Assembly: GCF_026226615.1 (NCBI RefSeq)
Contig: NZ_JAJAPB010000011.1
Coordinates: 1-64,000 of the forward strand
Direction of reading: 5' to 3'
DNA: 64,000 nt
From: Geovibrio ferrireducens
Lineage (GTDB): Bacteria; Chrysiogenota; Deferribacteres; Deferribacterales; Geovibrionaceae
The position numbers and the translations under genes are program-made. How positions within the stretch are numbered: the stretch's first letter is position 1; each line of letters opens with the position of its first letter. Shown piece after piece: positions 39,851 through 63,684 of the stretch. The notes beneath the pieces are model-generated. The model did no database searches. It had not been told where the DNA came from and saw only the letters and a list, made by a program, of their open reading frames with translations.

Positions 39851-41620
39851 CTATTTCTTGATTTCTTCCGGCATTATACCGCTTATAAGCGCTCCCCAGT
39901 GTTTGCCTTTAATGTAAATAGGCATGGAGATGTCGTTAAATACTTCGCCAGTGTCCCTTATAACAGTCTGGAGAAGTATGGGCTTCTGGTTTTGTGCCCG
40001 CTTTTTCTCAGCCAGTGAACCGAAGTAAATTTTCATATGGCGGCTGAATTTCAGGTCAGTATCTTTGTTTCCCGTAAGTTCCCTTGAAAACTCCGAATGG
40101 TGCACAGGAAGATAGCCTTTTCTGGTTACAGGCACAGAGTAGATAAGCTGGGGCATCCTGCGGAGGATGCTGTCGAGCTTGCTCTGAATCTCGCTTTTAA
40201 AGGCGTTTCTGTATGAAATATCGTATTTCTGCGGGAAAGTGTTCTTGATGGCTGAACAGTTTTCATCAAATACATTGATGCCTTTTTCAGCAAGCTTTTC
40301 AAGGCTTGTCTGAATCTCATTCCTGAAAACCGAAAGCTCAGCGGCAATTTTTTCAAACTCGCCCCTTCCGGTCTTGAATGTGGCCATGATTTCCTGAAGC
40401 TCTTCCGCTTCATCGCGCAGAGTATTTGTGCTGCTTCTGGTTTCTGTCATCATATGTGCAACCTGATTGCTCAGTTCCCTTATGCTGACTATATTTTCAT
40501 GCACTTCGCTGTTTGTTACGGAAAGTTCCTCAATGGCGGATGCGATGGTCATAAGCTGTGCGTTGTTTCTTTCGAAGTCATTTACCATTGTAACAAATTT
40601 AGTGGCTGATTCGGTAACAACATTCTTAGTGTTTTCAGTGTAACTGACAATAACCTCTGTTTCTTTTTCGGTGTTCTTGACCAGAGTGATCATGTCACTG
40701 ACATTATGCTCAATTTCATCGGTGGCATCTTTGACCCTTTCCGCGAGCTTGCGCACCTCATCAGCAACCACGGCAAAGCCTCTGCCGTGTTCACCTGCTC
40801 TGGCGGCTTCTATAGCGGCGTTAAGGGCAAGCAGGTTTGTCTGTTCCGATATATCCTTAATCAGTGAGATGATTTGCTTAATATTTGCCGAGTTGTTGGA
40901 AAGGGCATCAACTGTATTTCCGAAGGTTCCCAGCATGGAGCCGACCTGCGATATTTCACCGCTGGCTTCCTCAAGCCGCACAGAAATATCCTTTGCGCTT
41001 TCAAGGTTTGTGGTTGTGGATGATGATATTTCCTGTGAGTTTATGGCGATCTCGTTAATTGCTGTTGTGGACTGTTCGCTTGCTGTGTAGATAAGCTCTG
41101 CCATTTCGTTCTGTTTGTTAATGCTGCCTGTGGCAAAGTCAACAGCCTTACTGACCCTTTCACCGCCTATTGCGACCTCAATGCCTATGTTCCTCGAAAT
41201 ACATATGTTTCTGCGAAGGTGATCCATAAAGGAGTCATAGCTTTCAGCCATTTGTCTGAATTCGTCATAACTCATTTTCGGCAGTGAGCAGGAAATGTCG
41301 CTGGAGTTTGTATCTGTACTTTCAAAAACATGGATCATGGCTTTTACCGGTCGGATAAACAGGTGGCGCATGAATAATATAATGAACGTACCTGCTCCGA
41401 TGCTGAGACAGAGCATTACAGCTATAATAAGCAGTGAGCCGTTAAGAAAGGATTCCATTTCCGGTATGCCTGCATGGGCTGAGAATGACTTTTCCCTCAT
41501 ATATAAAGTTGTTACGGTAATTAAATTCAGAAGAATCAGAAAGCCGACATTACCGATAATTTTTTTGGATATTGAATCAAAGAAGTGTTTCTCAAGATAT
41601 TCATAGATCTTCATAAACAT
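39851..41620 (-). CDS. Methyl-accepting chemotaxis protein with C-terminal sensor module
   Basis: Inner-membrane chemoreceptor, 589 residues from ATG 41620 (AGGTGG 6 bases upstream; the open frame extends to 41653). Two helices (about 20-40 and 61-83) enclose only about 20 periplasmic residues, so there is no external ligand domain. HAMP follows, then the signalling hairpin with [20 protein letters not shown] and [16 protein letters not shown]. After the hairpin a domain of about 150 residues continues ([35 protein letters not shown]), seen at the C terminus of some MCPs. Sensing is therefore probably cytoplasmic. It shares a divergent intergenic region with lapE. Confidence 0.88.
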
Positions 41621-41929
41621 AAAAAACCACCTGACAATAAATCTTACAGACATTAAAGGTTATACAAGGTTGTGCTGTCAAGATATTCTTTTAAATATCA
41701 CGACTTTACATCTTTTACATATGCTCACTCATTTATTAAACGTCATCAGATCTATTAATGATTTAAAGCAGCATTACCGATAGTCATTTTCGTAAATTTA
41801 ATCGGCAGCACTGATAATTTAATTAATTCTTATGCTGCAATACAGTGTTAAATATAATTACATAGTTCTCTTTTTCCGAAAACAATTATTTTTAGCCATT
41901 GTCAGAAAATTATTTTAGGGCGCAAAAAA

Positions 41930-41947
41930 ATTGTACAAAAGTACAAT
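41930..41947. promoter_or_regulatory. Palindromic operator candidate ATTGTAC-N4-GTACAAT
   Basis: A perfect 7-bp inverted repeat with a 4-base AAAA spacer, centred about 157 bases before the lapE ATG. The same core, GTAC-N4-GTAC with pyrimidine-pyrimidine flanks, occurs upstream of lapA at 58742-58757. It is a good candidate site for a dimeric regulator of the adhesin system, possibly the LuxR-type protein of this operon. It could also act on the divergent chemoreceptor gene. Confidence 0.6.
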
Positions 41948-42025: not shown

Positions 42026-42053
42026 TTGATTCCTTGCGCAAGAGTGGTATTAT
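42026..42053 (+). promoter_or_regulatory. Possible sigma-70 promoter of the lapE operon
   Basis: TTGATT (42026-42031), 16-base spacer, TATTAT (42048-42053). The match is moderate and the region is AT-rich, so other promoters are possible. Confidence 0.35.
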
Positions 42054-42095: not shown

Positions 42096-44084
42096 ATGTG
42101 CTTATTGAATAGCTTAAGGAGAAAACTTCTCTTAGTTACGGCTCTGTTTTCTCTGTTATGCACGGCAGGATTTGTATCCTCTGCATACGCGGATGAAAAC
42201 CTGTCACCCATGCAGTCCGACATGGCTCAGACTGCTCAGTTCATGCCTCTTCAGGAGGTACTGAAAGATATTGTTAAAACAAACCCGGAAGTTCTTGAAG
42301 CTCTGAAAAGGTACCAGACGGTCAAATCAGAACTCGGAATGGCCAAAAGCGGCTACAGACCTAACATAAGCGCTGAAGCCAGCATCGGGCCGGAAGTCAC
42401 AAAAGGCTACGACACCAATTATGAAAGTGAAGACCTTATCGCAAGAAGAGCAGGAATATATGCGCGCCAGAACCTCTTTAACGGAATGCACACTTCAAAT
42501 TATGTTAAAGAGACTGAATCACGCGTAAAAGCAGCAGCTTATGATGTCCTCAATACTGCGAACAGGGTTTTTCTGGAAGCAGCGGAAGCTTATCTGGAAG
42601 TTCTGAAAACTGCAGAACTGGTTGAACTGGCCAGACAGAATGTTATTACGCAGGCTCAGATACTTAAACAGATAAAAGAAAAAACTGATTCCGGCTTCGG
42701 AAGGGCATCTGATCTTTCCAACTCAGAATCACGCTTCGCACTCTCCAGAAGCAACTTCATCTCTCAGCAGCAGGATCTTAATCAGGCAATAGTGAAATTC
42801 CACAGGCAGTTCGGCCGCATCCTCAGACCGGAAGTGTTCATAGTGCCCGAACCTGAGGGAACCCTTCCTTCCACAAAAGAAGAAGCTGTTGATATGGCTC
42901 TTCATGTGCATCCTGCCCTCCGTGTTGCAAACTATAACATAGAGGTAAGGAAGTACACTCTCTCCAAAGACAAATCAGCCTATTGGCCTTCACTTGACCT
43001 CGAACTTCAGGCTGAACACAGCAACGATGTCGGCGGTGATGACGGCTGGACAAACAACGCAGGAGCTTTCCTGAAACTCAGCTACACTTTATATGACGGC
43101 GGCATAAGAAAAGCACGCAAAGCCGGCAACTATGAATCAATGCTTAAAGAGTATCAGAGAAGCTACATCGAACGCAGAAATGTCAATGAGACAGTCGGCC
43201 TTGCATGGAACATTTTTATCGCTGAGCAGACAAAGAAACTGTTCCTCACCGAACACGTTGACATGAGCGAAAAAACCCTTGTTGAGTTTAAAGAGGAATA
43301 TCACCTCGGCAGAAGAACTCTTCTTGAGCTGCTTGATATTGAAACAGAATATTTCACTGCGCAGAACTCATTTGTTCAGTCAAAATTCTCTTTCCTGACA
43401 TCATACTACAGGCTTGCTCAGGCAACAGGCATGCTTCTCAACGAGTTTGAAACCGGTCTCTTCGAAAAAGTGGATCTCAAAGACTACAAAGACGAATTTG
43501 ACTACGCTCTTTACAAAAAACTCGGCGAAGACAGAGATAAGGATACAGTGAAGGACACTGCTGACCAGTGCGACAACTCACTGCTTAATTCTGACACTCT
43601 GCCTTGGGGCTGCTTTGATAAGAGAGGTCTTGAAGTAGGCTATAATGTTCCTGAAAAAATAGAGCCTTATATCCTCCCGAAAGAGCAAAGACCCGCAGTC
43701 AAAGAACAGAGAGTTCTTGCCATAGACGAATCGAAAAAGGAACAGTCCTTCCATCTGGACATAATCAATTTCAACTTCGACTCAGCAGAACTCACACCTG
43801 AAGCGCGCGAGTATCTTAAAACCATAGCCGGACAGCTTAAAGCGCTTAAAGACTACAAACTTGAAATAGTCGGCCACACCGATATTTCCGGTACAAGAAG
43901 ATATAACCAGCAACTTTCCGAAAAAAGGGCAGAAACAGTGGTGAATGAACTTGCGGCTCTGGGTGTTGATAAAAATATCATGACATCCTACGGCAAAGGA
44001 AGCGCATCACCTATCGTCAGCAACCAGACCCTTGAAGGAAGACAGAAAAACAGACGTATAGAGTTTAAGCTTATCAGAAACTGA
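42096..44084 (+). CDS. lapE: LapE-like outer-membrane channel: TolC fused to OmpA
   Basis: Outer-membrane exit pore for the adhesin. A long signal peptide ends near SSAYA. Residues about 50-460 are a TolC-family protein in two repeats (LYDGGIRKARKAG and HLGRRTLLELLDIETEY are standard landmarks). A short thrombospondin-type-3-like segment (DRDKDTVKDTADQC) leads to a C-terminal OmpA domain (FNFDSAELTPEAREYL, HTDISGTRRYNQQLSEKRAE, RRIEF) with the diaminopimelate-binding Asp and Arg in place. The fusion would anchor the pore to peptidoglycan. AGGAG lies 8 bases before the ATG. It begins the operon lapE-lapG-lapD-lapB-lapC-luxR. Confidence 0.9.
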   Translation: MCLLNSLRRKLLLVTALFSLLCTAGFVSSAYADENLSPMQSDMAQTAQFMPLQEVLKDIVKTNPEVLEALKRYQTVKSELGMAKSGYRPNISAEASIGPEVTKGYDTNYESEDLIARRAGIYARQNLFNGMHTSNYVKETESRVKAAAYDVLNTANRVFLEAAEAYLEVLKTAELVELARQNVITQAQILKQIKEKTDSGFGRASDLSNSESRFALSRSNFISQQQDLNQAIVKFHRQFGRILRPEVFIVPEPEGTLPSTKEEAVDMALHVHPALRVANYNIEVRKYTLSKDKSAYWPSLDLELQAEHSNDVGGDDGWTNNAGAFLKLSYTLYDGGIRKARKAGNYESMLKEYQRSYIERRNVNETVGLAWNIFIAEQTKKLFLTEHVDMSEKTLVEFKEEYHLGRRTLLELLDIETEYFTAQNSFVQSKFSFLTSYYRLAQATGMLLNEFETGLFEKVDLKDYKDEFDYALYKKLGEDRDKDTVKDTADQCDNSLLNSDTLPWGCFDKRGLEVGYNVPEKIEPYILPKEQRPAVKEQRVLAIDESKKEQSFHLDIINFNFDSAELTPEAREYLKTIAGQLKALKDYKLEIVGHTDISGTRRYNQQLSEKRAETVVNELAALGVDKNIMTSYGKGSASPIVSNQTLEGRQKNRRIEFKLIRN

Positions 44085-44098
44085 TGTTATACTGAGTA

Positions 44099-44761
44099 AT
44101 GATAAACTTTAAACGAATAATGCTTATAGTATCCGCAGCAGTGACAGTTTATGTCGCTGCTGCGGTTTCATCTGAGATGTTTTATGTTCCGGAGGATGTC
44201 CGAAGCACCTTTAAAAGCCGTTATGGTGATCAGGCTGATAAAAGGCTTGCCGGGCTTCTCAGTCTTATGAATGAGATTGCGTCCGCCGACGAGGAAACAA
44301 AAATTATTGAGGTCAATAAGTTTTTCAATCAGGTTGAATACCGTTCTGACGCGCTGGTGTGGGGTAAGAGCGATTATTGGGCAAGCAGGCTGGAGTTTAT
44401 AGGGAAGGGGATGGGTGACTGTGAGGATTATGCCGTGGCAAAGTTCCTTACTCTCATTCAACTTGGTGTTCCTCAGGAGAAACTTTTTCTCACGTACGTT
44501 AAAGCCATAGGTTATGCCGAGGTTGCTCACATGGTTGTATCATATTACCCGCAAAAAGGCGCTGTTCCGCTTGTTCTTGATAATTACAACAAGCAGATTC
44601 TGCCCGCAACTAAAAGAAACGATCTGGTTCCCGTTTACAGCTTCACTGCTAATGATCTCTACATACAGAAACAGCAGGGGCTCGGAAAAAGGGTTAATCC
44701 CTCCTCGTCCAAAAACCTGCAAAAGCTGAAAGAAATCGACCTTGAAATATATAAGAGGTAA
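44099..44761 (+). CDS. lapG: LapG-type periplasmic cysteine protease
   Basis: Transglutaminase-like cysteine peptidase that cuts the adhesin N terminus and frees it from the cell. An N-terminal signal/anchor helix (IMLIVSAAVTVYVAAAV) is followed by the catalytic triad in order: Cys in GMGDCEDYA, His in EVAHMVV and Asp in LVLDNYN. WGKSDYW precedes the Cys as in LapG. Length 220 residues matches. In known systems it needs calcium and is held by c-di-GMP-bound LapD. It lies directly before lapD, as in Pseudomonas. Confidence 0.93.
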   Translation: MINFKRIMLIVSAAVTVYVAAAVSSEMFYVPEDVRSTFKSRYGDQADKRLAGLLSLMNEIASADEETKIIEVNKFFNQVEYRSDALVWGKSDYWASRLEFIGKGMGDCEDYAVAKFLTLIQLGVPQEKLFLTYVKAIGYAEVAHMVVSYYPQKGAVPLVLDNYNKQILPATKRNDLVPVYSFTANDLYIQKQQGLGKRVNPSSSKNLQKLKEIDLEIYKR

Positions 44762-44766
44762 CTAAA

Positions 44767-46710
44767 ATGACTCTATTCCGACAGTTACAGATTTTTGTGA
44801 CAGTAATGCTGCTGGCGGTTCTGGGTATTGTTCTGCAAATTAATTTCAGCGATACCAAGGAATACGTGCGCAATCAGTTATACACAAATGCAAAAAACAC
44901 GGCTAACTCCCTTTCTCTCTCAATGAGCCCTTTTATGGATGATCTTTCCATAATGGAGACAATGATAAACGCCATGTTCGACGGCGGTTACTACGAGGAG
45001 ATAACCCTGATAAAACAGGACGGAACCGTGGCTTATTCAAAGAGTGAGAACATAGCTGTGGAGGGTGTTCCGCAGGCTTTTATAAATATGGTCAGGCTTG
45101 AGGCTCCTGTGGCTGAGGCCGCAGTATCAGGCGGCTGGAGCATATACGGAACGCTTAAGGTCAAAGTGCATCTGGGGCATTCATACTTGCGCCTGTGGGA
45201 AACATTCAAACAGCTTTGCCTGTGGTTTGTTGTTCTGGGCGGTCTTGCCTCGCTCGTAAGTTATTTCATTCTTAAACTTATTCTCGCTTCTCTCAATGCC
45301 ATAAAAGCTCAGGCAGAGGCAGTGGGGAACAATGAATTCATAATAAACGAGCGTGTGCCTAAAACCCCTGAGCTCAGGCAGGTTGTTCTTGCCATAAATG
45401 CAATGGTTCAGAAGGTGCAGGGTATTTACAACCGTGAGGTTGAAACACTCCAGAAATATCAGGAACTGCAATACAAAGATGCCCAGACAGGTCTTTATAA
45501 CCGTAAATATTTCATAAAACAGTTCAGCAACTTCGTTTCATCCAATGATGAGCGTTCAAAAGGTGAGGTCATACTCTTCTCATTTGAAGGGCTTGAAAAA
45601 GTGCATCAGATGTCAGGATTTCAGGTTGTTCAGCAGCTTTACGACTTTGCCTCTGCCACAATGAAGGAGTGCACGGTAAACAAGCTTTACTCCTTTGTCT
45701 CCTGCCTCAATTCAAATGACTTCGTGATAACACTGCCTTCGTCCGATGTTGAGGAGAGTACTCTCTGCACTAAAATAATCTATTCCAAAATAAAAGATTT
45801 TGTTGATGCAAACAAAGAGTTCAGCGGGCATACGGACTTTGCCGCAGGCATAGTCAGCTACAACGAAACAGACAGTATAAGCAGTGTTCTCACTAAGGCC
45901 GACTATGCGCTTTCTGCCGCAAAAAATGCCGCAGAACCGCATCTGGATCATTTCCGGGATGACGGAACAAAGCTGATTCTCGGTAAACTGGAATGGAAGA
46001 AGATGATAGAATCCGCCCTCAGCGAACAGAGGTTTATGCTCACATCACAGCCTGTTGTCTCTGAAATAGGGGAGCTCCACAGGGAGATATTCATCAATAT
46101 GATCGACCTTCAGGGGCAGATACAGAGGGCAGGGTATTTTATGCCTATGGTTATCAAGCTCTCTCTTGCCAATGATGTGGATCAGTACGTGCTGAGGCAC
46201 GCCACCGATTTTCTTGATAAAAATCAGGGAATTACCCTCGCTGTCAATGTTTCCAACGACTTCCTCAAGGACAGGGAATCCTTCACGTGGTTCAGAAAGT
46301 TCCTTTCCTCCGTCAGACACCTTAACAGCAGACTTGTGTTTGAAATACCGGATGAGGCGATAGGCAAAAGCTTTGACATATGCCTTGATTTCTCCGGTCT
46401 GCTGAAAGGTACAGGGTTCAAATTCGGCATAGACAGGTTCGTTATGAATGAAACCTCAGTCAAATATCTTCATCTGCTTAAACCGGACTATATCAAGGTT
46501 GAGCAGGACTATCTGCTTGATATTGAAAATAACGGTGATGCGGGTATCGCGCTCAATGCTTTCCTCACGATTACCGAAAGTCTGGGTATAAAACTCATTG
46601 CAACCAAAATAGAAAACGAGGAACAGAAAGCAGTGCTTGAAGCAAGACAGATAAAATACTTTCAAGGAAGGGGAATTGCGGATATTTCCCCATTGGGCGA
46701 TAAGAAATGA
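44767..46710 (+). CDS. lapD: LapD-type c-di-GMP receptor, degenerate GGDEF/EAL
   Basis: Inside-out signalling protein that captures LapG when c-di-GMP is high. Helix 1 (about 9-25), a periplasmic LapD/MoxY-type domain to about 150 (with GGWSIYGTLKVKVHLG), helix 2 (about 155-175), HAMP, then GGDEF and EAL domains. GGDEF is replaced by LNSNDFV and EAL by EIFINM, so both are catalytically dead, as in LapD; DRFVMNETSVKYLHLLKPDYIKVE keeps the binding-type surroundings. GAGG is 8 bases before the ATG. It overlaps lapB by 4 bases. Confidence 0.93.
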   Translation: MTLFRQLQIFVTVMLLAVLGIVLQINFSDTKEYVRNQLYTNAKNTANSLSLSMSPFMDDLSIMETMINAMFDGGYYEEITLIKQDGTVAYSKSENIAVEGVPQAFINMVRLEAPVAEAAVSGGWSIYGTLKVKVHLGHSYLRLWETFKQLCLWFVVLGGLASLVSYFILKLILASLNAIKAQAEAVGNNEFIINERVPKTPELRQVVLAINAMVQKVQGIYNREVETLQKYQELQYKDAQTGLYNRKYFIKQFSNFVSSNDERSKGEVILFSFEGLEKVHQMSGFQVVQQLYDFASATMKECTVNKLYSFVSCLNSNDFVITLPSSDVEESTLCTKIIYSKIKDFVDANKEFSGHTDFAAGIVSYNETDSISSVLTKADYALSAAKNAAEPHLDHFRDDGTKLILGKLEWKKMIESALSEQRFMLTSQPVVSEIGELHREIFINMIDLQGQIQRAGYFMPMVIKLSLANDVDQYVLRHATDFLDKNQGITLAVNVSNDFLKDRESFTWFRKFLSSVRHLNSRLVFEIPDEAIGKSFDICLDFSGLLKGTGFKFGIDRFVMNETSVKYLHLLKPDYIKVEQDYLLDIENNGDAGIALNAFLTITESLGIKLIATKIENEEQKAVLEARQIKYFQGRGIADISPLGDKK

Positions 46711-48854
46711 GCAGGAAAATATCATCCGATTCACTGATGAACTGCCTGGTTCTGCTGACCAAGCTGAACAACAGGCCTGCCACTATGGAAGCCCTGGCTT
46801 ACGGCTTGCCTTTTGACCCGAAGAAGGAGAAGCAGTCTCTTTTTGATGTTGAGAAATCGAAGGCAAATTTTTCCCGTGCGGCTGCCAACGCAGGCTTTAA
46901 ATCCACTCTTGTGAAAAGACGGATTGAAGATCTGCCTGCGGTTGTTCTCCCTGCCATTCTTCTGCTTGAGAACGGGAACGCATGTGTTATCACGGCTATT
47001 GATCATACAGGGAAAAGAGCGGAGATCGTCATCCCTGATATTGATGAAACGCCTATGGAAACAGATTTTGAGAAGCTCAATGACGAATATCTCGGTTTTG
47101 CCTTTCTCCTGAAAAAGAATTATGAAGGCTACAGGCCGGAGGACTCCGCCTCATCCGAAGGGGATCGGGATAACTGGTTTTTCGGTACACTCTGGAAATT
47201 CAGGGATATATACTGGAATGTTCTGCTGGCAACCCTTCTGATAAACATATTTGTCATAGCGGGCCCCATGTTCACAATGAACGTGTACGACAGAATTATC
47301 CCCCATAACGCTGTGGATACTCTGTGGGTTCTGGCCATCGGCATATCAACAGTCTATATCTTCGATCTTATTCTTAAATATCTCAGAACCCAGTTTCTGG
47401 AAGTGGCTGCCAAAAAGAGCGATGTAATTCTCTCTTCCATACTTTTTGAGCAGTCCCTCAACCTGAAAATGAAGAACAAACCCAGAACCGTAGGTTCTTT
47501 TGCCAACAACCTCAGAGAGTTTGACGGAATCAGAGGATTTTTTACATCCGGCGCTGTAGTGGCGTTCATCGAGCTTCCGTTTGTTGTTATCTTTCTCTTG
47601 GTTATCTATTACATAAGCCAGCTTTTGGTTCTTGTTCCCCTTACAACCATACTGCTGATACTTCTCTACAGTTTTTTTATGCGCAATCCCATCAAACGCC
47701 TCGCCGACAGCACACACGAAGCATCAGCCCGCAAAAGCGGTATTCTGGTGGAGGCTCTGTCCAATCTGGAGACAATCAAAGCGTTTAACGCCAACAGTTC
47801 AATCCAGTGGCACTGGGAGGAGAGCACGGGGGATATAGCCGCCAAAGGGCTCAAATCCAGAGTGCTTTCAAGCTCGCTGAGCACAGTTGCCGCATTCCTG
47901 ACGCAGCTGAGCAGTGTTGCGGTGGTTATTGCCGGGGTTTATCTCATTAAAGAGGGTGAACTCACCATGGGCGGGCTTATCGCAACGGTTATACTCTCCT
48001 CCAGAACCATAGCGCCCATGTCTCAGGTGGCTTCGCTGCTCACCGGTTATGAGCAGATGAAAACAGGCTTAAGCGCGCTTAATGACCTTATGAAAAAAGA
48101 GATAGAGCGCCCGGACAGAAAGCTTTTCCTCAGACGTCCGGTGTTTAAGGGAGCTATCGAGTTCAAAGATGTGACTTTCCGCTATCCTGATGAAACAAAG
48201 AATGCCCTCACTGGGGTCAGCTTCAAGATCAACCCCATGGAAAGAGTGGGGATAATAGGGCAGGTAGGTTCGGGGAAATCCACATTGGCAAAAATACTCA
48301 TGGGGTTTTATGACCCGGATGAGGGCAGTGTTTTTGTGGACGGTATAGACATTAAACAGATAGACCCGGCGGATCTGCGGCATAATTTCAGCTATGTTCC
48401 GCAGGATGTGTCTCTTCTTTCCGGCTCAGTGAGAGAGAACATCACATTTAAGGCTCCTCATTCGGAGGATTCTGAAATTATACGCGCAGCAAATATAGGC
48501 TGCGTGACTAATTTTACTGACCGCCACCCCATGGGGCTTGATGTAAATGTGGGTGAAAGAGGGGGAAACCTCTCCGGCGGACAGAGACAGTCTGTTGCAG
48601 TGGCGCGCGCTTTCCTTGTGAACAGCCCCATAATCCTCATGGATGAGCCTACCAACTCAATGGACTACACGACCGAAATGAGGGTCATTGCCAACCTTAA
48701 AGAGGCGACAAAGGATAAAACCACAATAGTCATCACCCATAAACCCAGCATTCTGGAAATTGTTGACCGGATTATTGTTTTCGATAACGGAAGCATAGTC
48801 ATTGACGGTAAGAAAGAAGACGTGCTGGCAAAACTCGGAGGCAACCGAAAATGA
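46707..48854 (+). CDS. lapB: LapB-type type I secretion ATPase/permease
   Basis: Inner-membrane ABC exporter for the adhesin, 715 residues. Residues about 1-140 are a C39-peptidase-like domain without the catalytic Cys-His arrangement, the form that recognises RTX/Lap substrates without cutting. The membrane domain has six helices (about 165-440). The nucleotide domain shows Walker A GQVGSGKST, signature LSGGQRQSVAVARAF and Walker B IILMDEPTNSMD. It is coupled to lapD and lapC by ATGA overlaps. Confidence 0.95.
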   Translation: MSRKISSDSLMNCLVLLTKLNNRPATMEALAYGLPFDPKKEKQSLFDVEKSKANFSRAAANAGFKSTLVKRRIEDLPAVVLPAILLLENGNACVITAIDHTGKRAEIVIPDIDETPMETDFEKLNDEYLGFAFLLKKNYEGYRPEDSASSEGDRDNWFFGTLWKFRDIYWNVLLATLLINIFVIAGPMFTMNVYDRIIPHNAVDTLWVLAIGISTVYIFDLILKYLRTQFLEVAAKKSDVILSSILFEQSLNLKMKNKPRTVGSFANNLREFDGIRGFFTSGAVVAFIELPFVVIFLLVIYYISQLLVLVPLTTILLILLYSFFMRNPIKRLADSTHEASARKSGILVEALSNLETIKAFNANSSIQWHWEESTGDIAAKGLKSRVLSSSLSTVAAFLTQLSSVAVVIAGVYLIKEGELTMGGLIATVILSSRTIAPMSQVASLLTGYEQMKTGLSALNDLMKKEIERPDRKLFLRRPVFKGAIEFKDVTFRYPDETKNALTGVSFKINPMERVGIIGQVGSGKSTLAKILMGFYDPDEGSVFVDGIDIKQIDPADLRHNFSYVPQDVSLLSGSVRENITFKAPHSEDSEIIRAANIGCVTNFTDRHPMGLDVNVGERGGNLSGGQRQSVAVARAFLVNSPIILMDEPTNSMDYTTEMRVIANLKEATKDKTTIVITHKPSILEIVDRIIVFDNGSIVIDGKKEDVLAKLGGNRK

Positions 48855-50218
48855 TAAACGGCAAAAATTCCTCCGGCCATAAAAACGGAAACGGTAAAAA
48901 AAGCGTTCTTAACAGTGACATTGAGTTTATGAACAGCCTTAATGCCGCTGTGCTCCAGAAAAGCCCTATAAAAATGTCGCTGATACTTTACGTAATCACC
49001 GCACTTATAATAGTGCTTTTCACATGGGCATATTTCACAGAGCTTGATGAGCTCACAAGAGGCATAGGCAAGGTTATTCCTTCCCGGCAGGTTCAGGTGA
49101 TTCAGAACCTTGAAGGCGGGATAGTAAAGGAACTCAGAGTTAAGGAAGGCCAGTTTGTTAAAACCGGAGAGGTACTTGTTGTTATAGATGACACAGGTGC
49201 CGGAAGCTCATATCAGGAAGGACGGGCAAAACTCGGCGAGCTTAAGGCAAGAGCAGTAAGGCTCAAAGCCGAAGCCGGCATAGCCGGGTTTGTAATAGAT
49301 GAGGAAGCCAAAACAAACTACCCGCAGCTTATCATGGAGGAGCAGAGGCTCTATGAAACGAACACAGCCCGCAGGAACAGCGAGAAGGAAGTGTTTGTCC
49401 AGAGGTTTAAGCAGCGGCAGGTGGAATTGGCGAATGCGCGCCAGAGGCTTAAAAACCTCCATACCAGCAAAGGTATGATACAGAGGGAAATAGAGCTGAT
49501 GGACCCGCTTTTCAAAAAAGGTCTGGTTTCGGAGCTTGAGTTTATTCAGCTCAGGCAGAAAGAGCTTGATAACCGCAAGGAGATTGACGAGACAGTGAAA
49601 AACATCGAATCCCTTGAACATCAGGTTATTGAGGCGAGAAACGCCATAGGCGAAATTGAAGGACGGCAGAAAAGTGAGGCGCAGACTGAGCTTAACAAGG
49701 TCATAGCTGAAATTGAGCAGATCTCAAACTCTCAGGTGGCTATTGAGGACAGAGTGAGGCGTACCATGGTGCGCTCCCCTGTGGACGGTACTGTGAAACA
49801 GCTTTTCATCAACACTGTGGGTGGTATTGCCAAACCGGGTATGGACATTATAGAGATAGTGCCCAATGACGACAAACTGCTTGTGGAAGCGAAAATCAAG
49901 CCTTCCGACATAGCATTTGTTTACCCCGGACAGAATGCAGTTATCAAGCTCACAGCGTATGATTTTGCGATTTACGGCGGTCTGGAAGGGAAGGTTATAC
50001 ACGTCAGTGCGGACACTATCACCGATGAAAAGGATGAGGAATACTACCTTGTCAGAATCGAAACGGACACTAACTACCTCGGAACGGAGGACAACAAAAA
50101 AGACATAATGGTCGGCATGACAGTTCAGGCGGACATAATTACGGGCAAAAAGACAATTATTCAGTACATCATGAAGCCGATTTTAAGGGCGAAGTACAAC
50201 GCGCTAAGGGAAAGATGA
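48851..50218 (+). CDS. lapC: LapC-type membrane-fusion protein (HlyD family)
   Basis: Periplasmic adaptor that joins LapB to the outer-membrane pore, 455 residues. One N-terminal helix (ILYVITALIIVLFTWAYF), a lipoyl/barrel-sandwich domain (RQVQVIQNLEGGIVKELRV, shortened as NLEGGIVKELRVKEGQ), long coiled-coil hairpin (about 130-280), and beta-barrel region with MVRSPVDGTVKQLFINTVGG, a standard HlyD signature. Frames overlap lapB and the LuxR gene. Confidence 0.95.
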   Translation: MINGKNSSGHKNGNGKKSVLNSDIEFMNSLNAAVLQKSPIKMSLILYVITALIIVLFTWAYFTELDELTRGIGKVIPSRQVQVIQNLEGGIVKELRVKEGQFVKTGEVLVVIDDTGAGSSYQEGRAKLGELKARAVRLKAEAGIAGFVIDEEAKTNYPQLIMEEQRLYETNTARRNSEKEVFVQRFKQRQVELANARQRLKNLHTSKGMIQREIELMDPLFKKGLVSELEFIQLRQKELDNRKEIDETVKNIESLEHQVIEARNAIGEIEGRQKSEAQTELNKVIAEIEQISNSQVAIEDRVRRTMVRSPVDGTVKQLFINTVGGIAKPGMDIIEIVPNDDKLLVEAKIKPSDIAFVYPGQNAVIKLTAYDFAIYGGLEGKVIHVSADTITDEKDEEYYLVRIETDTNYLGTEDNKKDIMVGMTVQADIITGKKTIIQYIMKPILRAKYNALRER

Positions 50219-50808
50219 TGAAAATAACTGTTGTAACTGATGATAACCGCTTTTTTGAATATGTTGAGTCAGCCGTCAGAATGAACGGCTGCAGTTTTAT
50301 GAGATATAACCGTGATAAGGCAGAGGAATCTGTAAAGAATGCGGACTTGCTGGTGGTGGATCTTCTTTCCTCAGACAAACAGATTCCTGTCGGAGTCTGC
50401 CCTGTGGCTGTTTTCTCCGCTGTTCCGGGGTACAATGAGGCAGTACGCTTCCTTCATAAGGGAGTAAAGGGTTACGGTAACAGGTTCATGAACCCGGAAA
50501 ACCTTAACCAGATGCTTCATACTGTGATTTCTGGACAGGTATGGCTTCCTCCTTCAATACTCAGCAGGCTGATAGCCTCAGTGCCGCAAAACGGCACTTC
50601 ACGGCTTGAGGCGGGCTTTTTTGATGACCTCAGCGAGAGGGAGCAACAGGTGGCTGAACTGATAGGGCGGGGTATGAGCAATAAGGAAATTGCCGATTCC
50701 ATGGGGATCACCGTGCGCACTGTCAAGGCGCATCTCTCATCGGTTTTTGTAAAAACCGGATGCCGGGACAGGCTGGAGGTTGCCCTCAAGCTGAAAGGAA
50801 GTGTATGA
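50218..50808 (+). CDS. LuxR/NarL-type regulator with degenerate receiver
   Basis: Transcription factor, 196 residues. The N-terminal 115 residues resemble a receiver: an Asp is present at DLLVVDLLSS and acidic DD near residue 9, but the conserved Lys of the last strand is missing (GVKGYGNRFM). The C-terminal GerE HTH is intact (LSEREQQVAELIGRGMSNKEIADSMGIT as key segment). ATG 50215 or 50218; the latter suits the AAGGG spacing. It closes the lap operon with an overlapping start, so its expression is tied to secretion genes. The c-di-GMP motif of VpsT-like proteins (W-F/L/M-T/S-R) is not present; WLPP occurs instead. Confidence 0.85.
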   Translation: MKITVVTDDNRFFEYVESAVRMNGCSFMRYNRDKAEESVKNADLLVVDLLSSDKQIPVGVCPVAVFSAVPGYNEAVRFLHKGVKGYGNRFMNPENLNQMLHTVISGQVWLPPSILSRLIASVPQNGTSRLEAGFFDDLSEREQQVAELIGRGMSNKEIADSMGITVRTVKAHLSSVFVKTGCRDRLEVALKLKGSV

Positions 50809-51239: not shown

Positions 51240-54200
51240 CTATCCGCCTATTTCTGTACCATCATCAGTGAAAGTGACTTTGATGTGAGTGTCTGTCACT
51301 TCAAAGGTTACTCCGCCTTCGAAACTGATGTTTGCGCTGCCGTCGTTGACAACAAGGTGACCGTTATCCACAGAGAATGCTCCGTCGGAGTTGTCTATGG
51401 TTACGAAGTCGCCCTCATTACCTCTGATAACGAGTTCGTTATCAGCATCAGTAATCGCCAGAACATCATGAAGGGTCAGGTTGTTCAGCGTGTTGTCGCC
51501 GCTGGTAAGGTCTATCTCTTCGATGTTCCTTACAACATCAGCTATGTTGCTGAAATCAAGCTCGCCGCCGCCTATTACGAGTGTATCGTAACCTGCGCCT
51601 GCGTCTATGAGGTCAGCAGTCGGGTCGAATGTGATAGTATCCGCACCGTCAGTTCCGTGAACTACATGAAGCGGAGCATCGCCTATGCTTATCACGAGGT
51701 GAGCAGTGTCACTGTCGCCGTCAGGCTGAGTAAGTTTGTACTCAAAAGTTTCAGTCTGACCTATGCTGTCTGCATTCGCAACAGGAGTGTAGGTGTACGA
51801 ACCGTCAGCTTTTATTACCAGTGTGCCGTATTCGCCGATGATTGTTGTTCCTGCCGCATCGGGTGAAACGTAGTCTGTTCCGTTGAATACGGTGAATGCT
51901 GCGCCTTCTGAGCCCATATCATCCACAGCGCCCCACTGGTCGTCACTGCCGAGGTAGTTGTTGGCATCCGTAAGCACGTTGCCTGAAACCATTGCAGCCA
52001 CAAGATACTCATAGCTTTCGGTTACAGTAGTGATATTGATGTTGGAGTAGTTTACAGTAAATGTTCTGGGGTTCTTCCCGCCAGTCTGATCATTTGCTGT
52101 GAGTTGGAGTCTGTATGTGCCTTGTTCCAGACTGCCTGTTGTTACAGAACCGTTTGCACCATTTGTCACAGAACCGCTTTCAACGTTAACCCATGTTCCG
52201 TTAACAAGTTTCTGAACAGCCCATGTGAAAGTATCACCGTTGTTAAAATTACTTATTGAGTAGCTGAAACTCAGTGAAGATGATTCTCCGCTTGCAACAT
52301 CAAATGAGCCTGTCGTTTTCTGACCGTAAGTACCGACTGCTGTTCCGCTGTTTGTATCGTATATACTGCCGGAATCCAGAAGCTTGCTTGTCTCAGTGAC
52401 AGAAGGTGCCTCAACTGTGCTTATTACCGCATGGTTAGCGTTGTCAGCCGCAAATACTTCGCTGCTGTCTGTTGTTGTGAGCGTAAGTGTAGCTTCGGAA
52501 GTTTCACCGTCAGCATCCTGTATTACATACTTGATTTCGGCTGTCACATCGTCAGCAACATCTGTTCCGGAGGTGTATTCATACCTTCCGTCACTGTAGA
52601 TTGTTACCTTGCCTGCTTCGCCGAGGTCAAAGGTATGCTCTGTTGTTGAGGAATCGAACTCCACTGTCACTCCGTTGTACTCAACAGATACAAGCTGGGG
52701 TGAACCTGCACCGTCATCACCGAAGTCATCGTTGTCAAGCAGATTGCCTTCAACAGTGTTCAGGTTCACTGTGCCCTCAAGTATGGCGGAGAGCTGGTTA
52801 TCGTTTGTAACCATTATTACGTTGCCGCTGTGGTTGTTGTCAGCATCACTCGTCCATGCAACCATTCCAAGCTGCTGAGTATTGCTTATTCCTGAACCCA
52901 CTCCGATTGCGAAAACTTCATCAATACCTGAAGTGCTGAGGAAGTTAGTCCACGTTGTGCGTTCTCCACTGCTTATAGAGTTATCGTTTCCTCCGTCGCT
53001 GCCCATGGGCTCACCGTCTGAGAGGAAATAAACATAAGTTTTATCCGCATCAGGAGCGTCGGTGTAAGAGGTTCTCACAACCTCTATAGCGTGGTCATAG
53101 TCGGTATAGTTTTTAGTGGTGAGACCTTCAATGGCGGTTTTAGCCTGTTCAGCAGTGAGCCATTTCTCTCCGTCTATTGTGTAAAGCTTAGCGCTGTCAT
53201 TAAAATCGACAAGCATTACACTTCCGAGAGAATCACCGTACTTATCGATAAGGTTTTGCAGAGCCGCTTTGGCAATCTGGAGTCTTGTGAGGCTGCCGAC
53301 CTTATCATTCATACTTGTTGATGTGTCGATCACAAGGACAAGGTTGACAGTCTGAGTCGTTGAGCTGCCTTCAACAACACTCACATAGTCGTTCTGAGCA
53401 ACGGGGACATCATTGGTGTTTGCTACTTCAACAGTTACTGTCGCAGTGTCAAATCCGCCGTTTCCGTCAGTCACGGTGTATGTGAATGTATCTGTTCCGC
53501 TGAATCCCTGTACAGGTGTGTAGCTGAACGTGCCGTCCTGATTAAGGGTTACTGTTCCGCCGTTTTCAGATGTTCCGTCATATGTGTGAATGCTGAGGCT
53601 GTCGCCGTCAACATCAGTGTCATTATCCAGAACATTGATAATAACGCTTTCGTTTTCATTTGTTTCAGCGAAATCATTTTCTGCAACCGGAGCATCGTTA
53701 ACGGGTGAAACCACAAGGTAAACCGTTGCTGTGTCCTCTCCGCCGTTGCCGTCTGAAATGGTGTATTCAAACTGAGCAGGGCCGTTGTAGTCAGCGTCAG
53801 GTGTGAACGTCACGCTTCCGTCATCATTAAGAACAACCTCTCCGTTAACCGCGTTGCCCACGCCTATTATGGTGAGTTCATCGCCGTCTATGTCAAAGTC
53901 GTTATCAAGAAGATCCGCAGCAGTAAAGTCTATTGCTGTGTCTTCAGCGGTAGTGTATGTGCCTTCGTTGGTCAGAAGGGTGTATGTGAGTCCGCCGTCA
54001 TCACTTATCATAGGCTGGAACACATATTCGCCGCCCTGATCCCACCAGTACATATCAATGTCGTACCATCCGCTTTCTTCAATTGTGAAGGAATCGTGTA
54101 CGTGCGTTGCGGGTGACTGGTTGTTAACAAACTTCGCCACGCTTTCGCCGTCTATGAGTATGTCATAGCCATCGTCAGCGTATACTTTGAAGTTGTAAGT

Positions 54201-57200
54201 GCCTGCTTCGATCCAGATTTTGCCGCTTATATGGAAGCCGCCTTCCGGTGTATCTGTCTGTCCGTTGACATATTCAAGCGAAGCGCCGTCATGGTTGAGG
54301 AACTCTGCCAGACTGTTGCCTGTGGACACGCCGTTGTTATTGCCGTAGCCGTACCAGATTTTTGTGGCTTCAAAAGTAGCCGCGGGATCTGTTGTATCGA
54401 CTATGTGCTTGAACTCAGTCAGGTTATCTATCAGGTAACCGTTGTCATTATTATACGTGCTGCCTGAGAGCCCGTTGAACTCTGTGCTTACAGCATAGTA
54501 GTTGCCTGAAAGTCCTGAGAAGCTGAAATTAGGTCTTCCGTCATCAACAGCCACAGGAGCGTCATTCACCGGGTTAACGGTAATGTTTACAGTAGCAGTG
54601 CTTGTTTCGCCGCTGGGGTCTGTTATTGTGTAAGTGAAGCTGTCATCACCGTTGTAGTTCTCATTGGGAACATAAGTGAATGTTCCGTCCTGATTAAGCG
54701 TAACAGTACCGTTTTCAGGCTGAGTGAAGTCATCAATGGATATGTCATCGCCGTCAACATCATAGTCGTTGTCGAGAACACCGAAGGTCACTGAGCCGTC
54801 TTCATCCACTTCAACTTCATCGTTAACAGCCACGGGCGCATCGTTTGTACCTTTAACTTTGATTGTGATGAACCCTTCTTCTGATTCGGCATTAGCCGCG
54901 CCGGAGTTGTCTGTGGCAGTGAAGGGGATCTTAAGAGTTAATATCTCGCCTTTTGCCAGACTGTCATAAGCGGGGTCAGCCGGGTCGAATGACCATGTAC
55001 CGTCTGAATTGAATGTGAAGCCTGCGGGTGCATCATCAACCAGTGCGAATGTATGGGTATCGCCGTTATCAATGTCGTAGGCCTTAACCTGTCCGCTGAT
55101 TTCGTCTCCGCCTTCGTAGACTGTTTTAGATACGTTTTTAACCCAGGGCTGGTCGTTTGTGCCTGTTACTGTAATTGTGATTGTCCCTGTCTCGGAGATT
55201 GAGTTGAGGGAGAATGAATCATCAACAGCAACATATTTCACGGTGAGAATTATCTCCTGACCTTCTCTCAGGCTTTCATACGCCGGGTTAGAAGGGTTGA
55301 AGCTGTACTCGCCGTTGGGCAGCAGTATAAAGCCTGCGGGCAGTTTTCCTGCGGGGAGGAATATATGGTTGTCGCCTTCGTCCACATCTGTCACATCAAG
55401 CTGACCGGTGTATTTTGCGCCGTTTTCATATACGCCGAACTCAACGTCTTCAACTTCCGGTCTGTCGTTTGTGCCTATAACCTTGATGGTTATCATGCCT
55501 TCTTCTGATTCGGCATTAAAAGCACCTGAACTGTCTGTGGCAGTGTAGGGGATCTTAAGCACAAGCACATCGCCTTTTGCGAGGCTGTCGTAAGCATCGT
55601 TGTCAGGGTCAAATGACCATGAGCCGTCGGGGTTCAGTGTGAAACCTGCGGGAGCGTCATCAACCAGAGCGAAAGTATGGGTATCGCCGGTATCTACATC
55701 CGTTACCTCAAGCTGTCCGTCAATAACTCTTCCGTCCTCGAATACGACTTTGGAAACGTCTTTGACTTCGGGCTGGTCGTTTGTGCCTGTTATTGTGACG
55801 GTTACGGTTTTCGTAACTGTACCGTCAAAAGAGGTTACTTCAAACGTGTCGGTAACTTTAGCGCCTTTGGGAAGCGACTGAACGATTATATTATCGTTAT
55901 CAAGTTCATATGTCCATTTGCCGTCCGCATCTATGGTGAATTTACCATAAGTGCCTTCTGCATCTTCAACGGGTCTGACAGAGCTTTCTCCTGTGTCAAC
56001 ATCCAGAACAAATATTCTGCCGGAAGTGCCGAGTTTGACATCCTCAACAACTGCGCCTTTAAAATCGCCTATCATAAGCGGAACATCATTTGTTCCCACT
56101 ATGGTGACAGTTACAGTTTCTGTGGCAGTACCGTCAAAGGATTCAACAGTGAATTCTTCTGTCAGTGTTGCTCCTGCGGGGAGGCTCTGTATAGAGGGGT
56201 GCAGGTTGAGCGCTGTATATTTCCAGTTTCCGTCCTCGTCCATTACGAATGCGCCGTATTTACCGATCTGTGCGGAGGGTTTAAAGGAGCTTTCGCCGGT
56301 ATCAACATCAACTATATCAAGCTTTCCGTTGGTGCTGAGGAGCAGGAAGTTGCTGTCTTCCGTAACAGAACCGCTGTCCTGACCGCTTATAACGGGTACA
56401 TCGTTAGTGCCTGTTATAGTTACGGTAATTTCATGGGTAGCGGAACCGTCAATGGAGGTTACAGTGAATTTCTCAGTCAGAGTCGCGCCTTCGGGGAGTG
56501 ACTGAATGGCTGAGCTGCCGTTTGTTGCTGTGTATGTCCATACGCCGAGCGGCCCCATAGTAAATGTGCCGTATTCGCCTTTGACTATTTCAGGTTTAAA
56601 GAAATCCTGAAGAAGGTCAGCATCGTCAATGGTAAGGATTCCGCCAGTTACCAGTTTGCCGAAGATAACATTCTGATCTTCCGTAACGAAGCCTTCATCC
56701 TTGCCGCTTATAACGGGTACATCATTAGTGCCCACTATTGTGACTGTTACTTTCTGGGTAGCTGTGCCGTCCAGAGAAACGACAGTGAAGGATTCTTTCA
56801 GTATTGCTCCCTGGGGGAGGAACTGAACAGCATCATTATTGAGGTCATAGACCCAGTTGCCTTCCTCATCAATGCTGAATGTGCCGTATTTACCTGCTGT
56901 GGTTTCCTGAACACGGAAATAGCTTTCGTTTTCGTCTATATCGGCTATATCAAGCTTACCGGAAGTGAAAAGCACTTCACCGTCTTCGTAAACAGTGCCT
57001 TTTTTATCGCCGGAAATTTCGGGAACATCATTTGTGCCTGTGATAGTTATTGTGACAGTTTCAGAGGCTGTACCGTCCACAGAGTAAACAACGAATGACT
57101 CGGTGAGTGTGGCTTCTGCGGGCAGAGCCTGAACATCGCCGTTTTCGTTGTTAAGCTGGTATGTCCAGTTGCCGTCAGCATCCATTACGAATGAGCCGTA

Positions 57201-58682
57201 AATACCCGTCTGTTCGGAAGGCTCAAAGAAGCTTTCGCCGGTGTCAACGTCAGCTATGTCAAGCTTGCCGGAAGTGAAAAGCGCTTCGCCGTCTTCATAA
57301 ACGCTGCCTTCAGCTTCGCCTGTTATAACGGGTACATCGTTTGTACCTGTAATAGTTATGGTTACTGTCTCTGTTGCAGTACCGTCAAGGGAGATAACTT
57401 CGAAAGTTTCAGTGAGGGTCACTCCGGCGGGCAGAGCCTGAACTGCAGGGTTCTCATTATTGAGGCTGTATGTCCAGTTGCCGTTTTCATCCATTACGAA
57501 TGAGCCGTATTCACCTTCCTGTTCAGCGGGCTGGAAGAAGCTTTCGTCGGTGTCAACATCAGCTATGTCAAGCTTGCCGGAAGTGAAGAGAGCTTCGCCG
57601 TCCTCAATAACATCGCCTGATGCTTCACCGGTTATAACGGGTACATCGTTTGTACCTGTAATAGTTATGGTTACAGTCTCTGTTGCTGTACCGTCCAGAG
57701 AAACAACTTCAAAGCTTTCTGTGAGAGTAGCTCCTGCGGGCAGAGCCTGAACAGCGGGATTACCGTTATTGAGGCTGTATGTCCAGTTGCCGTTTGCATC
57801 AAGTGTGAACGAGCCGTATTCTCCTGTAAGTTCGGAGGGGCGGAAGAAGCTTTCGCCTTCGTCTATGTCATCTATAGTCACCTGACCGTTTACGGAGGTT
57901 ACTACATCTTCAATGACATTGCCTTCATCCCCGGTGAGCACAGGAACATCGTTAACGGGGTTAACAGTTATTTCCACTGTGTAAGTGGCTGTGCCGCCGT
58001 TTCCGTCGTTTATTACATAGGTGAAGCTGTCCGGACCGTTATAGTTGGAGTTGGGGGTGTATGTGTAGGAACCGTCGGGGTTGATAACGAGAATACCGTT
58101 AACCGGGGGTGTTCCTACAGAGTAGGTTACGTTATCGCCGTCTAAGTCAGTCGCAGCGGGAAGCTGGCCTGAGAAAACGCCGTCTTCGTCCATAATGATG
58201 GCATCATCAGCCGCCACAGGGTCAGTATTACCTGCTCCCTCTTCATCCGCAGCGTCAAGTCCGCCTTCATCCTCAGCCGCATCAAGGAGGTAACTGCCTA
58301 CCTGACCTGCTGTGTCGTCACCGCCGTAGTAAGATGCGAGGAATTCGAACTGGTCTCCTTCGCCTGCGGCTGTTTCTTCTTCGATGTCATCAATGTTTTC
58401 ACCTGCTTCAAGTGCAGCCTGAAGGGCATCAACATCGGAAACAGAAGCATCTCCGCTTTCCACTGAGGCTATTACAGTTTCATCGAGCATCATCTCAGCA
58501 TTTTCGCCGAGAGATATTTCCTTGTTGTCAGCGAGCGTGATAACCACTGAACCGCCGATTCCGGTCTGGATGATTTCGTTTTCAAAAACTATATCACCGA
58601 CTCCGAGTGTGCGAACCTGACCGTCAGCACCGAGTGCCGTTACCGTTCCGCTGATTGATTTGATTGTTCCTGCCTGAGCCAT
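51240..58682 (-). CDS. lapA: LapA-like giant surface adhesin (VCBS repeats, PA14, VWA)
   Basis: 2480-residue type I-secreted adhesin. Residues 1-110 are the retention module that plugs the pore, with a TAAG site at 104-107 for LapG. An acidic linker and a cadherin-like domain reach about 245. Seven VCBS repeats of about 103 residues (about 250-975, each ending TITGTNDVP-like) and three of a second type (about 975-1290) follow. Then cadherin-like domains surround a PA14 domain (about 1385-1560), and a von Willebrand A domain (about 1777-1960) has the metal site DTSTS. The end has a worn RTX-like segment (GTDGADTITFD, LIDAGAGYDTLVIGGG) and an uncleaved C-terminal secretion signal ending TDDGTEIGG. 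AGAGG precedes the ATG by 6 bases. It is transcribed toward the lap operon, not from it. Confidence 0.93.
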   Translation of the reverse strand: MAQAGTIKSISGTVTALGADGQVRTLGVGDIVFENEIIQTGIGGSVVITLADNKEISLGENAEMMLDETVIASVESGDASVSDVDALQAALEAGENIDDIEEETAAGEGDQFEFLASYYGGDDTAGQVGSYLLDAAEDEGGLDAADEEGAGNTDPVAADDAIIMDEDGVFSGQLPAATDLDGDNVTYSVGTPPVNGILVINPDGSYTYTPNSNYNGPDSFTYVINDGNGGTATYTVEITVNPVNDVPVLTGDEGNVIEDVVTSVNGQVTIDDIDEGESFFRPSELTGEYGSFTLDANGNWTYSLNNGNPAVQALPAGATLTESFEVVSLDGTATETVTITITGTNDVPVITGEASGDVIEDGEALFTSGKLDIADVDTDESFFQPAEQEGEYGSFVMDENGNWTYSLNNENPAVQALPAGVTLTETFEVISLDGTATETVTITITGTNDVPVITGEAEGSVYEDGEALFTSGKLDIADVDTGESFFEPSEQTGIYGSFVMDADGNWTYQLNNENGDVQALPAEATLTESFVVYSVDGTASETVTITITGTNDVPEISGDKKGTVYEDGEVLFTSGKLDIADIDENESYFRVQETTAGKYGTFSIDEEGNWVYDLNNDAVQFLPQGAILKESFTVVSLDGTATQKVTVTIVGTNDVPVISGKDEGFVTEDQNVIFGKLVTGGILTIDDADLLQDFFKPEIVKGEYGTFTMGPLGVWTYTATNGSSAIQSLPEGATLTEKFTVTSIDGSATHEITVTITGTNDVPVISGQDSGSVTEDSNFLLLSTNGKLDIVDVDTGESSFKPSAQIGKYGAFVMDEDGNWKYTALNLHPSIQSLPAGATLTEEFTVESFDGTATETVTVTIVGTNDVPLMIGDFKGAVVEDVKLGTSGRIFVLDVDTGESSVRPVEDAEGTYGKFTIDADGKWTYELDNDNIIVQSLPKGAKVTDTFEVTSFDGTVTKTVTVTITGTNDQPEVKDVSKVVFEDGRVIDGQLEVTDVDTGDTHTFALVDDAPAGFTLNPDGSWSFDPDNDAYDSLAKGDVLVLKIPYTATDSSGAFNAESEEGMITIKVIGTNDRPEVEDVEFGVYENGAKYTGQLDVTDVDEGDNHIFLPAGKLPAGFILLPNGEYSFNPSNPAYESLREGQEIILTVKYVAVDDSFSLNSISETGTITITVTGTNDQPWVKNVSKTVYEGGDEISGQVKAYDIDNGDTHTFALVDDAPAGFTFNSDGTWSFDPADPAYDSLAKGEILTLKIPFTATDNSGAANAESEEGFITIKVKGTNDAPVAVNDEVEVDEDGSVTFGVLDNDYDVDGDDISIDDFTQPENGTVTLNQDGTFTYVPNENYNGDDSFTYTITDPSGETSTATVNITVNPVNDAPVAVDDGRPNFSFSGLSGNYYAVSTEFNGLSGSTYNNDNGYLIDNLTEFKHIVDTTDPAATFEATKIWYGYGNNNGVSTGNSLAEFLNHDGASLEYVNGQTDTPEGGFHISGKIWIEAGTYNFKVYADDGYDILIDGESVAKFVNNQSPATHVHDSFTIEESGWYDIDMYWWDQGGEYVFQPMISDDGGLTYTLLTNEGTYTTAEDTAIDFTAADLLDNDFDIDGDELTIIGVGNAVNGEVVLNDDGSVTFTPDADYNGPAQFEYTISDGNGGEDTATVYLVVSPVNDAPVAENDFAETNENESVIINVLDNDTDVDGDSLSIHTYDGTSENGGTVTLNQDGTFSYTPVQGFSGTDTFTYTVTDGNGGFDTATVTVEVANTNDVPVAQNDYVSVVEGSSTTQTVNLVLVIDTSTSMNDKVGSLTRLQIAKAALQNLIDKYGDSLGSVMLVDFNDSAKLYTIDGEKWLTAEQAKTAIEGLTTKNYTDYDHAIEVVRTSYTDAPDADKTYVYFLSDGEPMGSDGGNDNSISSGERTTWTNFLSTSGIDEVFAIGVGSGISNTQQLGMVAWTSDADNNHSGNVIMVTNDNQLSAILEGTVNLNTVEGNLLDNDDFGDDGAGSPQLVSVEYNGVTVEFDSSTTEHTFDLGEAGKVTIYSDGRYEYTSGTDVADDVTAEIKYVIQDADGETSEATLTLTTTDSSEVFAADNANHAVISTVEAPSVTETSKLLDSGSIYDTNSGTAVGTYGQKTTGSFDVASGESSSLSFSYSISNFNNGDTFTWAVQKLVNGTWVNVESGSVTNGANGSVTTGSLEQGTYRLQLTANDQTGGKNPRTFTVNYSNINITTVTESYEYLVAAMVSGNVLTDANNYLGSDDQWGAVDDMGSEGAAFTVFNGTDYVSPDAAGTTIIGEYGTLVIKADGSYTYTPVANADSIGQTETFEYKLTQPDGDSDTAHLVISIGDAPLHVVHGTDGADTITFDPTADLIDAGAGYDTLVIGGGELDFSNIADVVRNIEEIDLTSGDNTLNNLTLHDVLAITDADNELVIRGNEGDFVTIDNSDGAFSVDNGHLVVNDGSANISFEGGVTFEVTDTHIKVTFTDDGTEIGG
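58362..58373 (-). other. Predicted LapG cleavage site (TAAG) in the adhesin
   Basis: Codons for Thr-Ala-Ala-Gly at residues 104-107, flanked by EEE and EGD. In P. fluorescens LapA the TAAG at nearly the same position (about 107-110) is cut between the two alanines. No second TAAG is near the N terminus. Confidence 0.8.
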
Positions 58683-58910
58683 AAAATACCTCTTAGGTTT
58701 TTATTGATAATCAATGTTAAATCAGGAAAACAACAGGAACATCGTACCATGGTACAGGTACGCATATTTTTTTGAAAAAAGTTTTCATGAAGCAGATAAA
58801 CTGCTGATGTGAGAGGCAAATAAAAAAAGATAAAAATTGAGTTATTTGGAGGGGAGATTTGGGGGAAGTACAGGGAATTTTGATATTAGCCAAACGTAAT
58901 GAGTATGGTT
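58683..58910 (-). promoter_or_regulatory. Upstream region of the adhesin gene
   Basis: 228 bases without a gene. A perfect 13-base inverted repeat ATTGATAATCAAT lies at 58703-58715, next to the ribosome site, and the GTAC palindrome lies behind it. A promoter should fall between them, but I see no strong -10/-35 pair. Confidence 0.5.
58742..58757. promoter_or_regulatory. Palindromic operator candidate TCGTAC-CATG-GTACAG
   Basis: The core GTACCATGGTAC (58744-58755) is a perfect 12-base palindrome, centred 68 bases before the lapA start codon. It has the same GTAC-N4-GTAC layout and YY flanks as the lapE site at 41930-41947. A third GTAC half follows at 58758-58761. Because the two transcription units are 17 kb apart, the shared motif suggests one regulator for both. 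Confidence 0.6.
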
Positions 58911-63489: not shown

Positions 63490-63684
63490 TTTTTTGCTCG
63501 CTTTTAGCACATTGGATTCATTTTTTGTACCGTTTTATAGTTTTCCAGCTTAAATTGCATCTTGAATTCCATATTTATCTTATCATTACTAGAGAGTAAT
63601 AACAACTCATAAGGATTACGCTTATGGGTGTCTGTAAATGAGGCAACATTTTTTAGATTCACTTGTAAATAAAGGAAAATATAA

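Follow-up and report, generated by a model that had tools for sequence, protein, structure and literature searches.

What is known of the control of LapA-type adhesins is chiefly retention by LapD and LapG and the action of distantly encoded FleQ/VpsR-type factors in Gammaproteobacteria. FleQ, FlrA and VpsR are NtrC-type regulators encoded elsewhere, and VpsT is not known to be part of a lap operon. Adhesins of this type have been described as controlled by FleQ, FlrA, VpsR and VpsT (PMC6890996, PMC13090378), and the sites of VpsT tend to vary (PMC6890996). The locus described here resembles the FleQ/FlrA/VpsR systems of Pseudomonas and Vibrio in that transcriptional control of a Lap adhesin would act besides the retention control by LapD and LapG, but differs from them in that the regulator is of the LuxR type and is built into the export operon. 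A second point of comparison is the lux box of Vibrio fischeri, with its GTA-N6-TAC core and the half-site ACCTGTA. It is centred at -42.5 (PMC3376562). Common to both systems are an inverted repeat centred near -42 and binding by a GerE-fold dimer (here predicted), whereas the half-site here is ATYGTAC, the regulator has no autoinducer-binding domain and the target is an adhesin, not luminescence.

The locus lies in a window of 64,000 nucleotides (the whole stretch of DNA that was analysed) from Geovibrio ferrireducens, a member of the Deferribacterota. The operon (42096-50808, in the order lapE-lapG-lapD-lapB-lapC-luxR; Table 1) is convergent to lapA, and the two encode what characterizes a Lap adhesin system, i.e., a retention module, a LapG protease, a LapD receptor and a type I exporter, with matches to the profiles NF033682, PF06035, PF16448, TIGR03375 and TIGR01843. 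The components LapA, LapB, LapC, LapD, LapE and LapG are shared with the Lap system of Pseudomonas fluorescens and the Dvh system of Desulfovibrio, but here LapE is a TolC channel fused to a C-terminal, peptidoglycan-binding OmpA domain, and the operon encodes a LuxR with what appears to be a dedicated box.

Table 1. Coordinates of the lap genes, the two palindromes and the predicted promoter elements in the window.
Feature	Position	Strand	Description
lapE box, ATTGTAC-AAAA-GTACAAT	41930..41947	.	7-4-7 palindrome; proposed LuxR operator; conserved island in G001/G002
predicted lapE promoter, TTGATT-16-TATTAT	42026..42053	+	predicted; extended -10 TG
lapE	42096..44084	+	TolC-type outer membrane channel with C-terminal OmpA domain
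lapG	44099..44761	+	periplasmic cysteine protease (Peptidase_C93)
lapD	44767..46710	+	c-di-GMP receptor, LapD_MoxY_N-GGDEF-EAL
lapB	46707..48854	+	type I secretion ABC transporter
lapC	48851..50218	+	HlyD-type adaptor
luxR	50215..50808	+	NarL/VpsT-like regulator, GerE DNA-binding domain, atypical receiver; proposed binder of both boxes
lapA	51240..58682	-	2480-aa adhesin: LapA retention module, VCBS repeats, BapA/LapF-type C-terminal domain
predicted lapA -10, TAACAT	58714..58719	-	predicted; 24 nt from box
GATGTT	58738..58743	-	conserved non-consensus hexamer, -35 slot of predicted lapA promoter
lapA box	58739..58758	-	lapA strand: CCTGTAC-CATG-GTACGATGT; proposed LuxR operator adjoining -35 position

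The first-pass annotation of this DNA had pointed out two palindromes with GTAC arms and the same symmetry, one before lapE and one before lapA. Both are present where they had been placed (the pattern YYGTAC-N4-GTACRR matches at 41931-41946 and at 58742-58757, the lapA box starting about 60 nt upstream of the lapA ATG), but the common symmetry holds only in part: the lapE box is a full 7-4-7 palindrome, whereas the lapA box is symmetric over its 12-bp core only, its outer bases (CCTGTAC / ATCGTAC) being imperfectly paired. The two matches in the window compare with 0.02 expected from shuffling, and none of the shuffled sequences had two. Extended to the whole genome, the scan suggested at the time returned exactly two matches in 2,967,002 bases, namely the same two sites before lapE and lapA, and not many equally good ones at other positions. 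The bare core GTAC-N4-GTAC occurs four times in the genome, the other two copies having different flanks and no relation to lap. When up to two mismatches were allowed, ATYGTAC half-sites gave 16 sites genome-wide versus 11 for a reversed control, i.e., no sign of a wider regulon in this genome, and the lapE site was the sole perfect match. As the pattern was derived from these two sites, counts within this genome alone are post hoc, and it is conservation, in congeners, in other genera and in another phylum, that tests it independently.

Two congeners, G001 (the MAG 'Deferribacterales bacterium Deferri_01') and G002, with LapE identities of 87% and 91%, were compared with the window genome. 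Both boxes are kept in all three, and the surrounding intergenic DNA has diverged. The lapE box forms an ATTGTAC-N4-GTACAAT island in poorly conserved DNA, with the spacers AAAA, GAAG and AAAA, and its distance to lapE in G000 differs by 11 bp, about one helical turn, from that in the other two congeners; the lapA box is part of a longer conserved promoter block. In an alignment of the lapA upstream regions of ten genomes from three genera, TGTAC-NNN-GGTACGATGT is the only block that does not vary ahead of the Shine-Dalgarno sequence, with 14 of the 18 box columns invariant and the other upstream sequence variable; in G011, lapA runs off the contig, so that the promoter is missing. In the genera g3 (G004, G006, G008, G010) and g4 (G005, G007, G009), TTGTAC-N4-GTACGATGT, either unchanged or with a single letter altered, stands just as far upstream of lapA. 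The lapA gene of g4 is distant from the operon and unlinked to it, yet the box stays with lapA at that distance. The exact sequence TGTACNNNGGTACGATGT occurs once per genome in nine of the 51 genomes of the phylum, each time upstream of a LapA-type gene, and with one mismatch at lapA of G007. The lapA box was absent from the 39 other genomes searched in the phylum, and no copy with fewer than two mismatches was found in G003, a family member that has neither the lap operon nor a retention-module adhesin nor a luxR orthologue. A matrix scan upstream of lapE did not find the lapE box in g3 or g4, nor was it found at lapE of G236, a genome of another phylum (see below); judged from these genomes, the lapE box is confined to the genus of the window and the lapA box is family-wide, so that control of lapE would not be a general feature. 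About 111 nt before lapE, the g3 genomes G006 and G011 have instead CTACCATTAATGGTAG, also a perfect palindrome but not of the GTAC type.

The regulator gene follows the same distribution. Within the family, the genomes that have a luxR orthologue are exactly the 11 with lap, and in each of them this gene closes the operon, a co-occurrence that can be read off the genomes as directly as the sites themselves, their rarity, conservation and position. The recognition helix ITVRTVKAH is invariant in all 11 orthologues, the other ten being 40-90% identical to the window protein P0001, and the receiver halves have diverged, whereas the recognition helix and the box have not. A C-terminal GerE helix-turn-helix (PF00196, E=4e-15) places the protein in the LuxR/NarL family, and its closest PDB matches by sequence and fold are NarL, VpsT and VraR. 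Three more specific identities were considered and rejected. A quorum-sensing LuxR would share the GTA-N6-TAC dyad near -42 of the predicted start, but a Pfam search gave no autoinducer-binding domain, and the N-terminal half is receiver-like. A complete phospho-receiver has two acids, an Asp, a Ser/Thr and a Lys; here Asp49 is invariant, the first pair has one conserved acid only and the Lys position is N or R in YGNR, which sets the protein apart from the canonical phospho-response regulators of the NarL group. Likewise, NarL operators consist of TACYYMT heptamers 2 bp apart (7-2-7) and the arrangement here is 7-4-7 with ATYGTAC. With regulators of the VpsT/CsgD type the protein has in common a NarL/VpsT-like fold and sequence, a biofilm-type target and a recognition-helix histidine that aligns with that of VpsT. 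The c-di-GMP motif of VpsT-type binders, W[F/L/M][T/S]R (WLTR in VpsT), is however replaced by W[LM]PP in 11 of 11 orthologues; in VpsT, R134 is needed for c-di-GMP binding (PMC3359988).

The pairing of regulator and box was followed beyond the phylum with an HMM of the LuxR family, which was run against 385 genomes. G236, whose dnaA and EF-Tu genes we take to be Campylobacter-like, was chosen by its LuxR and its lap operon, the box having been defined beforehand, and is therefore an independent check. It has a tolC-lapG-lapD-lapB-lapC-luxR region, the LuxR of which carries the same helix core, LRTVKAHI, and two retention-module adhesin genes, neither of them linked to luxR. Each of the two is preceded by a perfect ATTGTAC-N4-GTACAAT (spacers CAAA and TTCA) 25 nt before TATAAT, and no further copy of the box was found in the 60 kb of this genome that were examined. 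A second LapG-like gene lies directly 3' of its luxR (L180:14365-14997). Four other distant LuxR matches, in G135, G191, G241 and G275, lie outside lap operons, and no clear box was found at a lap-like locus of another family of the phylum (G049), where the helix reads STVKKH. A second type I secretion locus in G007 encodes a LuxR paralogue, 33% identical, with a changed helix (EITVKKIL, with TVKKI), and the 137-bp gap between its adhesin gene and lapB holds ATTATAC-TTGG-GTATAAT, again a 7-4-7 arrangement with one base changed in each half-site. This single paralogue case is suggestive of the regulator helix and the box changing together. The second adhesin loci of G006 and G011, which have no luxR neighbour, showed no box.

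Very probably, the regulator that the operon's last gene encodes binds to both palindromes. A dimer of the LuxR GerE domains would recognise the ATYGTAC half-sites in the 7-4-7 inverted repeat, a proposed layout that equals the GTA-N6-TAC arrangement of the lux box. At lapA, the box centre lies about -41.5 to -43.5 from the predicted start, across phyla, and the dimer would sit there beside a non-consensus -35, the simplest reading being that of a class II activator contacting RNA polymerase. In the relatives the box is followed after 23-25 nt by a -10-like hexamer (TATGAT, TATTAT, TATAGT, TATAAT and similar), the one predicted for the window species being weak (4 of 6 positions). The GATGT in the -35 slot is invariant in all ten lapA sequences of the family, though not conserved in G236; beyond the palindrome it is asymmetric, and it is not fully explained by the operator reading. 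We infer binding, activation rather than repression, and the start sites. The same LuxR might instead repress lapA and lapE from the same operator until released by some signal, which we regard as unlikely. An operator in contact with the -35 region may indeed keep RNA polymerase off, and in Vibrio fischeri LuxR is able to repress ainS via a box overlapping the -35 (PMC5601948). Here, however, none of the genomes has a consensus -35, and the box keeps its distance from the predicted start, both of which fit an activator-dependent promoter.

The role of the lapE box is less clear than that of the lapA box, as no promoter lies at class II distance: none is conserved beside it, either towards lapE or towards the divergent chemoreceptor gene (mcp). 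The predicted lapE promoter, the -10 of which is conserved or near-conserved in three species, would place the box centre at about -121 from the start. In the window's genus, the only one in which it is seen, the box some 120 bp upstream may then act as a distal activator site, or alternatively serve an unmapped start. As the lapE operon ends with luxR, the box would, in this genus, tie the adhesin, its exporter and the regulator into a positive loop. Taken as a whole, the reading of both boxes as operators of the operon's own LuxR, with class II activation at lapA and distal activation at lapE, is one we hold with high confidence. The earlier proposal, that one system has the same operator at both of its starts, is supported in so far as uniqueness, footprinting, co-occurrence with luxR, the out-of-phylum test and one case of covariation all point the same way.

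The boxes could also be operators of another regulator encoded elsewhere, e.g., a GntR/PadR-like protein or a global factor, in which case luxR would simply have been inherited along with the operon. Other regulator families, too, bind inverted repeats that have GTAC arms, and linkage in the operon means that co-occurrence cannot separate luxR from lapE, lapG, lapD, lapB and lapC. This explanation is nevertheless improbable, for the box recurs in another phylum with a lap-linked luxR of the same recognition helix, a diverged luxR accompanies a diverged box, adhesin loci without a luxR neighbour are without the box, and the spacing and the position near -42 are typical of LuxR-type activators. 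It is very doubtful that the palindromes act as RNA hairpins in leader transcripts: the lapE box does form a hairpin, with 7 bp in the stem and 4 nt in the loop (z of -1.8 and -3.9 in two species), but so would any DNA palindrome as RNA, the predicted lapA promoter begins only downstream of its box, and it is the half-site bases themselves that are conserved, the outer pair at lapA being often mismatched or G-U. A chance resemblance of two unrelated palindromes is scarcely credible, even though the pattern was defined after both sites were known, given that both sites are kept in three species, the lapA site is kept in ten genomes, and the box was met again in G236.

A search of open-access texts gave no published account of a lap-operon LuxR that has a box of its own, and the comparative evidence supports a new regulator-operator pair with cross-phylum reach. 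With operator and LuxR so paired, the export operon would supply the regulator and a nearly unique operator would stand before the adhesin gene, i.e., a simple, dedicated switch outside the Gammaproteobacteria, and a readable one, for making a sticky cell-surface protein. We lean towards the broader view that the lap-operon LuxR and the ATTGTAC-N4-GTACAAT box form a portable module common to LapA-type systems of different phyla, serving linked and unlinked adhesins, with paralogous modules that diverged in helix and box together. If so, the motif, which points to unlinked adhesin genes, could be used to find the Lap substrates of a cell, and the regulator/box pairs would represent a natural specificity code.

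Several observations were made in the neighbourhood of the two boxes. A chemoreceptor (MCP) gene (39851-41653) is divergent from the boxed lapE promoter in the window's genus, and in genus g4 it is lapA that has a divergent neighbour of this kind, an MCP-like gene whose N-terminus differs (G007 C26 and G009 C6, judged by eye). Upstream of the lapE box, all three congeners share a second conserved block (41850-41905, ATATAATTACATA...TTATTTTT), which is possibly the mcp promoter or another site. Genes for an Eco57I-type restriction-modification system (58911-63510) lie between lapA and a tRNA-Arg(CCG) gene (63685-63758); in G001 and G002 the tRNA-Arg gene is directly upstream of the lapA promoter, so that the restriction-modification genes resemble an inserted island, about 100 bp upstream of the lapA box. 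The tetranucleotide CTAG is strongly avoided in the window, with 6 copies found versus 48 expected.
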